The notes under the pieces are model-generated. The model was not told the DNA's origin. It searched no databases and worked only from the letters and a program-made list of their open reading frames with translations. A stretch of 59,540 bases of DNA from Gammaproteobacteria bacterium. Its GTDB lineage: Bacteria; Pseudomonadota; Gammaproteobacteria; AKS1. The translations under genes were made by a program, and so were the position numbers. Shown here in pieces: positions 15,010 through 15,876 of this stretch (position 1 is the stretch's first letter; the number at the start of each line of letters is the position of its first letter). Location: the NCBI GenBank assembly GCA_027006175.1, contig JALTKS010000001.1, forward strand, positions 1 through 59,540, given 5' to 3'.

Positions 15010-15024
15010 AGGGGTTTAACCATT
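15010..15024 (+). promoter_or_regulatory. Ribosome-binding site and ATT initiation codon of mreC
   Basis: AGGGG (15010-15014) stands 7 bases before ATT at 15022-15024. The mreC frame has a stop at 14989-14991 and contains no ATG, GTG or TTG between it and 15097, so the well-placed ATT is the best initiator. AUU starts are rare and are restricted by IF3; infC and pcnB are known E. coli cases. Confidence 0.7.
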
Positions 15025-15876
15025 AAAACACTGTTTACACAGGGGCCGTTACTTGGCACCCGTTTTATCCTGCTGATTATTGTATCCATTGTCATCATGA
15101 CAATGGATCATCGATACCGTCATCTTGATACAGTGCGCTCGACTTTATCGCTTGTCATCGAACCGATTCGACAACTTGTTGACCTACCTTTTTCCATTGC
15201 CGAAAATTTGAGCGTGAATTTATCATCTCGTTCAAACTTACTCAGCGAAAACGAAGAACTACGTAGAAAGAATTTACTTCTTAAAGCACAATTACAAAAA
15301 CACGCATCACTTAAATCTGAAAACATGCGCTTGCGTGAATTACTCGACTCATCATTCAAGGTAGGCGACAAGGTTCTCATTGCTGAATTGATTCGTGTTG
15401 ATCTTGATCCTTTTTCACGCCGCATTGTCATTAACAAAGGTAGCAATGATGACCTCTATGCGGGTCAACCACTATTGGATTCAGATGGCATTATTGGTCA
15501 GATATTACAAGTGAGTCCTTTCTCAAGTAATGCCATGTTAATCACCGATCCAAGTCATGCTATCCCTATTCAGTTAAACAGTACCGGCCAACGAGCCATT
15601 GCCGTAGGAACAGGGCGAGCCAATGAAATTGAATTACGTCATATTCCCAGCAGTACTAAACTTGAAGAAAATGAATTACTCGTTTCTTCTGGCTTAGGGG
15701 GACGCTTCCCCGCGGGCTATCCCGTTGCACGTGTTACCCGTATAACCAGGCATCCTGGTGAGCCTTACCTTGAAGTGATCGCTCGTCCGACTGCTCACTT
15801 ACAACGCAGCCGTGAAGTATTAGTCGTCTGGCCAAGTGCTGGTCCACAACTCGAAACCAATGCGGAGGCGAAATAA
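15022..15876 (+). CDS. mreC: Rod-shape-determining protein MreC (ATT start)
   Basis: Bitopic inner-membrane protein that links MreB to periplasmic PBP2 and the elongasome. Starting at ATT 15022 gives 284 residues; the N-terminus (KTLFTQGP then a hydrophobic helix) aligns residue by residue with E. coli MreC (KPIFSRGP then helix). Starting at the first ATG (15097) would delete the cytoplasmic tail and the only transmembrane segment, which the function requires. A coiled coil follows (LLSENEELRRKNLLLKAQLQ, about residues 73-100) and then the paired beta-domains with LLITDPSHAIPIQL and SSGLGGRFPAGYPVA. It overlaps mreD by one base (TAATG). Confidence 0.95.
   Translation: MKTLFTQGPLLGTRFILLIIVSIVIMTMDHRYRHLDTVRSTLSLVIEPIRQLVDLPFSIAENLSVNLSSRSNLLSENEELRRKNLLLKAQLQKHASLKSENMRLRELLDSSFKVGDKVLIAELIRVDLDPFSRRIVINKGSNDDLYAGQPLLDSDGIIGQILQVSPFSSNAMLITDPSHAIPIQLNSTGQRAIAVGTGRANEIELRHIPSSTKLEENELLVSSGLGGRFPAGYPVARVTRITRHPGEPYLEVIARPTAHLQRSREVLVVWPSAGPQLETNAEAK

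Follow-up and report, generated by a model that had tools for sequence, protein, structure and literature searches.

mreC is predicted to start at a conserved ATT, ATC or ATA codon in many gammaproteobacterial lineages

To our knowledge, very few bacterial genes start with ATT, ATC or ATA (together ATH), infC being the classic case. Another is pcnB of Escherichia coli, encoding poly(A) polymerase, whose AUU start is thought to be sensitive to initiation factor 3 (IF3). Here we consider mreC, a gene essential for rod shape, in a 59,540-nucleotide stretch of DNA from a gammaproteobacterium (GenBank assembly GCA_027006175.1, contig JALTKS010000001.1, positions 1 to 59,540; hereafter the window), for which an original prediction made from the sequence alone had proposed initiation at an ATT codon.

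The described systems resemble mreC in different respects. At the AUU or AUC start of infC, IF3 represses non-canonical initiation and thus autoregulates, and the gene is often misannotated (PMC5472188, PMC5559785). mreC likewise combines a conserved ATH start with a Shine-Dalgarno (SD) sequence and frequent misannotation; however, the IF3 feedback of infC is proven, whereas mreC is known from sequence, and its product acts in cell shape and plays no part in initiation. Like mreC, pcnB lies outside the initiation machinery and has an ATH-type start, but that of mreC is spread over many families, and the pcnB homologue of the window genome has no obvious conserved ATH start. In Streptomyces, mutations and IF3 alleles have proven that IF3 represses the GTC start of sigR and so holds the sigma factor at a lower level than the antisigma factor of the same operon (PMC5472188). 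The proportion of two operon products there depends on a non-canonical start, as it may for mreC, and annotation has likewise shifted the start to a canonical codon close by, although the codon is GTC and the proof experimental, whereas mreC has ATH and evidence from sequence. Finally, weaker start codons are accompanied by stronger SD sequences (Belinky et al., 2017; PMC5622118), a compensation also seen in mreC, but that study concerned GTG and TTG genome-wide, whereas mreC keeps ATH at one gene over many families; AUG to AUU switches numbered only 1 in 61,358 ancestral AUG starts (PMC5622118). We found no published report of a non-canonical mreC start in open-licence full texts. mreC joins the known ATH-start genes, and by analogy may also belong with them in the IF3-regulated sense.

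In the window, mreC lies between mreB and mreD, as in the MreC family, and its product matches PF04085 at 135.4 bits (cut-off 28). Read base by base, its frame is closed upstream by TGA 14989–14991 and holds no ATG, GTG or TTG from there to ATG 15097. The codons after the TGA are TCT GGA GTA ATA CGA AGC AGG GGT TTA ACC ATT AAA ACA CTG TTT, and, besides the ATT, the near-cognates that precede the helix-coding region are ATA 15001 and CTG 15031. An AGGGG (15010–15014) precedes ATT 15022 by a 7 nt spacer, with an SD duplex energy of -6.0 kcal/mol, as against +0.9 kcal/mol 5' of ATG 15097. Translated from the ATT, MreC reads IKTLFTQGPLLGTRFILLIIVSIVIMTMDH, and its N-terminus aligns with that of E. 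coli MreC (IKTLFTQGP versus MKPIFSRGP). ATG 15097 is residue 26 of this protein and falls within its sole strong hydrophobic stretch (residues 10–28); the best 17-residue segment begins at residue 10 with a Kyte-Doolittle value of 2.61, the maximum beyond residue 40 being 1.11. Only translation from ATT 15022 gives the short cytoplasmic tail and the single N-terminal helix. The absence of a canonical codon, the loss of the helix with a start at 15097, the alignment with E. coli and the AGGGG 7 bases upstream had all been claimed in the original prediction, and all held when checked, as did its expectation that automated callers would truncate the protein: a mechanical list of open reading frames puts the start at 15097, and therefore cuts the membrane anchor, and the Pseudomonas aeruginosa record is shortened likewise. 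Since the frame offers no canonical codon upstream of the helix, we read ATT 15022 as the start; on sequence evidence, mreC is very probably translated from this conserved near-cognate codon (probability about 0.92). A single RNA fold at the mreC start showed nothing notable (z = -0.86).

We then compared mreC 5' regions from genomes of the class, anchoring residue 1 with a profile of the first 110 residues, which demands no particular codon but whose first column favours Ile and Met. Among 174 anchored, de-duplicated loci, the residue-1 codon was ATT in 55, ATC in 51, ATA in 27, ATG in 36 and GTT in two, with one each of GTG, TTG and CTA; the first two bases were A and T in 169, while the third varied. 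The ATH fraction of 133 of 174 should not be taken as an estimate for the whole class, because the loci came in order of their similarity to the query, in a sampling that favours relatives of the query and loci aligning to residue 1 (many of them from metagenome-assembled genomes), and because about 100 further loci did not anchor at residue 1. Of the 133 ATH genes, 118 have no canonical start anywhere from the upstream stop to the conserved N-terminus, so the ATT in the window is not a matter of chance, and 124 have none within 12 codons upstream. A few further loci carry the ATH one codon earlier, as ATH-AAR-(AAG/CAG) (L013, L100, L115, L127, L144, L163, L193), and at least one GTT locus (L053) has an ATC one codon upstream. 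In L137, GTT stands at the start position after a perfect GGAGG, with no other in-frame start; the codon there may be an even rarer start, or the sequence may be in error.

The residue-1 position does not behave as an ordinary internal isoleucine, of which Val and Leu would be expected; both are almost absent. ATA makes up 20% of the third-base use there, as against 11% among the Ile codons of the same genes (p = 0.006). Of the 174 genes, 150 have AAA or AAG as their second codon (15025–15027 in the window), and positions -2 and -1 are enriched in C; initiation at a weak codon may be helped by both features. A few same-phylum loci outside the Gammaproteobacteria (L250, L265–267, L271, L273, L275) had no I-K start and a canonical codon nearby. 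Over many gammaproteobacterial lineages, then, the ATH start is, as judged from these alignments, a conserved property of mreC. Among the objections that the original prediction had itself raised were a conserved canonical codon elsewhere in relatives and a sequencing error at 15022, and neither of these was borne out: relatives carry ATT, ATC or ATA at the aligned position in the proportion given above, and a sequencing error is ruled out by three genomes of the same genus, with ATT in two (one of them Sulfuriflexus sp., L032) and ATC in the third, a single 3.1 Mb contig.

How far the conserved residues reach bears on where else MreC might begin. The N-terminal residues (I/M)K-P-(L/I)-F-x-x-G-P extend to the ATH codon and not further, E. 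coli having its ATG there. A start further upstream or at another unusual codon, or a fusion made by frameshifting from mreB, could be imagined from the mreC frame of the window, which is open for 10 codons upstream of the ATT and overlaps the end of mreB by 10 nt, and is open for much longer in some relatives. The upstream residues, however, are not conserved. Among relatives the frame is open upstream for anything between 0 and more than 70 codons, and several of them have a stop directly or one codon before the ATH codon. Nothing upstream is conserved except the SD, and an upstream-started protein would have that SD within its own coding sequence. Aligned mreC 5' regions of ATH genes showed no conservation upstream of the SD. 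We therefore rejected both the upstream extension and the frameshift, given the conservation of the SD only and the widely varying open length, and regard them as highly improbable.

The other candidate is a canonical internal start (ATG 15097 in the window; GTG or TTG in relatives) giving a shorter MreC. In Pseudomonas (genus g273), all 30 loci read had ATH (ATT 17, ATC 11, ATA 2), and MreC of family f160 shares about 90% identity with PDB chain 6zlv from P. aeruginosa. The P. aeruginosa sequence CP123788.1 (L311; a 1131-base fragment deposited as a plasmid) reads TAGGAGCGGATC-ATC-AAA-CCG-CTA-TTC; an in-frame stop precedes the ATC by three codons, and the SD is TAGGAG. Its mreC would start at the ATC at 219, but is annotated from a GTG at 267, 16 codons downstream, giving VLAVLSVSLMVVDA... 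The residues P114, F115, R175, E188 and R190 of a 2021 structural paper on P. aeruginosa MreC (PMC8137920) fit only the GTG as origin. The internal start is thus the one in use in that record and that paper, and ATG 15097 is the first in-frame canonical codon in the window. Against it, such a start cuts the sole helix of a membrane-anchored protein, the GTG lying inside that helix; it has no SD (+0.9 kcal/mol in the window, -2.5 kcal/mol in P. aeruginosa); and the conserved residues lie upstream of it. For these reasons ATG 15097 was rejected as the start, and we give the shorter MreC hardly any weight. Because it counts from the internal GTG, the published P. aeruginosa numbering would run 16 residues late.

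Start codon and SD strength were strongly related. Duplex energies with the anti-SD ACCUCCUUA, scored over the 16 nt from -20 to -5, averaged -7.2 kcal/mol for ATH genes and -3.2 kcal/mol for ATG genes (Mann-Whitney p = 3e-12), with -3.6 kcal/mol for shuffled sequence; values of -5 kcal/mol or below were reached by 91% of ATH genes, 25% of ATG genes and 29% of shuffled upstream sequence. The ATH genes have a purine-rich SD peak at -12 to -7, mostly ending 4–7 nt before the codon. The difference persisted when families were compared by their means (p = 3e-8), and a phylogenetic regression with lambda = 1 put the effect of ATG at +4.5 kcal/mol (p = 6e-9). On a tree of 160 rows we counted about 55 third-base changes, of which about 21 were C<->T and about 3.5 A<->G, so G is not freely exchanged at this base; ATH and ATG interchanged about 10 times. 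The third base rarely enters G, and where it did the SD is mostly gone. This trade-off, like the wide spread of the ATH start over the Gammaproteobacteria, goes beyond the original prediction.

This pattern also bears on whether the codon does anything. The ATH start could be real and have no regulatory role, a product of ancestral drift in which a strong SD compensates and MreC output is ordinary. The SD does compensate for the codon, and some lineages moved to ATG without evident change in gene order. Yet a single point mutation restores ATG, and A<->G is nonetheless far rarer than C<->T while ATH persists over dozens of families; lineages with ATG are mostly without an SD, and GTG and TTG are nearly absent at the mreC start. 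We consider drift without a role possible but doubtful.

The alternative that we favour is that the ATH start would keep MreC output low. The fMet-tRNA would pair with the A and U at positions 1 and 2 of ATT 15022, and the SD, at a standard distance, would offset the mismatch at the third. The protein would then begin fMet-Lys-Thr-Leu-Phe and would have its short tail in the cytoplasm and a complete membrane anchor. Most likely, much less MreC than MreB would be made from their shared transcript, as the original prediction had suggested for this operon, plausibly through discrimination by IF3, and the balance of the elongasome would benefit from the lower MreC. A brake on MreC would make sense, since in E. 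coli an excess of the protein disturbs cell shape and its balance with MreD controls the activity of PBP2 (PMC7793260). At the first two codon positions IF3 requires Watson-Crick pairing, and at the third it rejects weak pairs (PMC10158994); the invariant A and T and the variable third base of mreC match these requirements. The near-absence of GTG and TTG favours IF3 sensitivity over a merely weak codon. In the window genome, ATC is the only plausible start of infC (L190, contig 79, about locus position 1249), preceded by GGAGG and standing directly after TGA-AGT, so this organism seems to use an ATH start in a second gene as well. Taken together, the sequences suggest that low MreC output is somewhat the likelier case; control by IF3, which we propose by analogy, is a more tentative suggestion.

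Several observations weigh against this reading. Enterobacteria, Aeromonas and about 20 of the sampled family-level groups use ATG, and therefore a weak codon is not required everywhere. ATG groups f133 and f155 also have a strong SD. When only well-supported branches of the tree are counted, three independent ATH/ATG pairs are left, too few for a sign test, which is why phylogenetic regression was used. The trade-off could come in part from a lesser dependence on the SD in genes that have gained ATG, without selection for low output, and a need for very low initiation would equally explain the near-absence of GTG and TTG. Lastly, mreB served as a canonical-start control: its aligned residue-1 codon was ATG in 60 of 79 loci, nearly all the others having ATG 1–3 codons upstream, and its SD was at chance level (loci L001–L057 and L160–L189). 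MreB is expected to be abundant, and since mreB is likewise without an SD, a missing SD alone is no sign of low expression.

Among the genes with canonical starts, mreC of E. coli and of Aeromonas caviae has ATG and no clear SD, and in Legionella adelaidensis and Acinetobacter it is annotated with GTG. The annotated start in L. adelaidensis (L312, 1471) is a GTG that lies within the last part of mreB (VVISSQQNN...), and an overlap with mreB of this type is also kept in L153 and L200. Table 1 gives the coordinates of the features in the window.

Table 1. Features in and around mreC in the window.
Feature	Position	Strand	Remarks
mreB	13955..15001	+	ATG start; stop TAA 14999–15001; canonical-start control gene
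TGA closing the mreC frame upstream	14989..14991	+	From reading of the frame
AGGGG, putative SD of mreC	15010..15014	+	7 nt before ATT; -6.0 kcal/mol
ATT, predicted mreC start codon	15022..15024	+	From the frame; ATT, ATC or ATA at this position in 133 of 174 anchored relatives
mreC coding sequence, 284 aa	15022..15876	+	Stop TAA 15874–15876; PF04085 match
Predicted MreC membrane helix, about residues 10–28	15049..15105	+	From hydropathy
Internal ATG, residue 26, start given by standard callers	15097..15099	+	No SD
mreD	15876..16361	+	ATG start overlaps the mreC stop

If the ATH start is as we describe, gene callers remove the tail of MreC and part of its membrane anchor, and the cytoplasmic tail and membrane helix as conceived in the P. 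aeruginosa structural study would be off. More speculatively, and in our view with the odds against it, mreC may be a widely conserved IF3-controlled gene of the Gammaproteobacteria, in which the ATH codon ties a PBP2-activating subunit of the elongasome to the state of the initiation factors and so links side-wall growth to translation capacity, the ATG lineages having kept initiation low by loss of the SD. Spread over many gammaproteobacterial families, Pseudomonas included, the ATH start of mreC would be among the widest cases, and it would make the purpose of IF3 discrimination outside infC directly testable.
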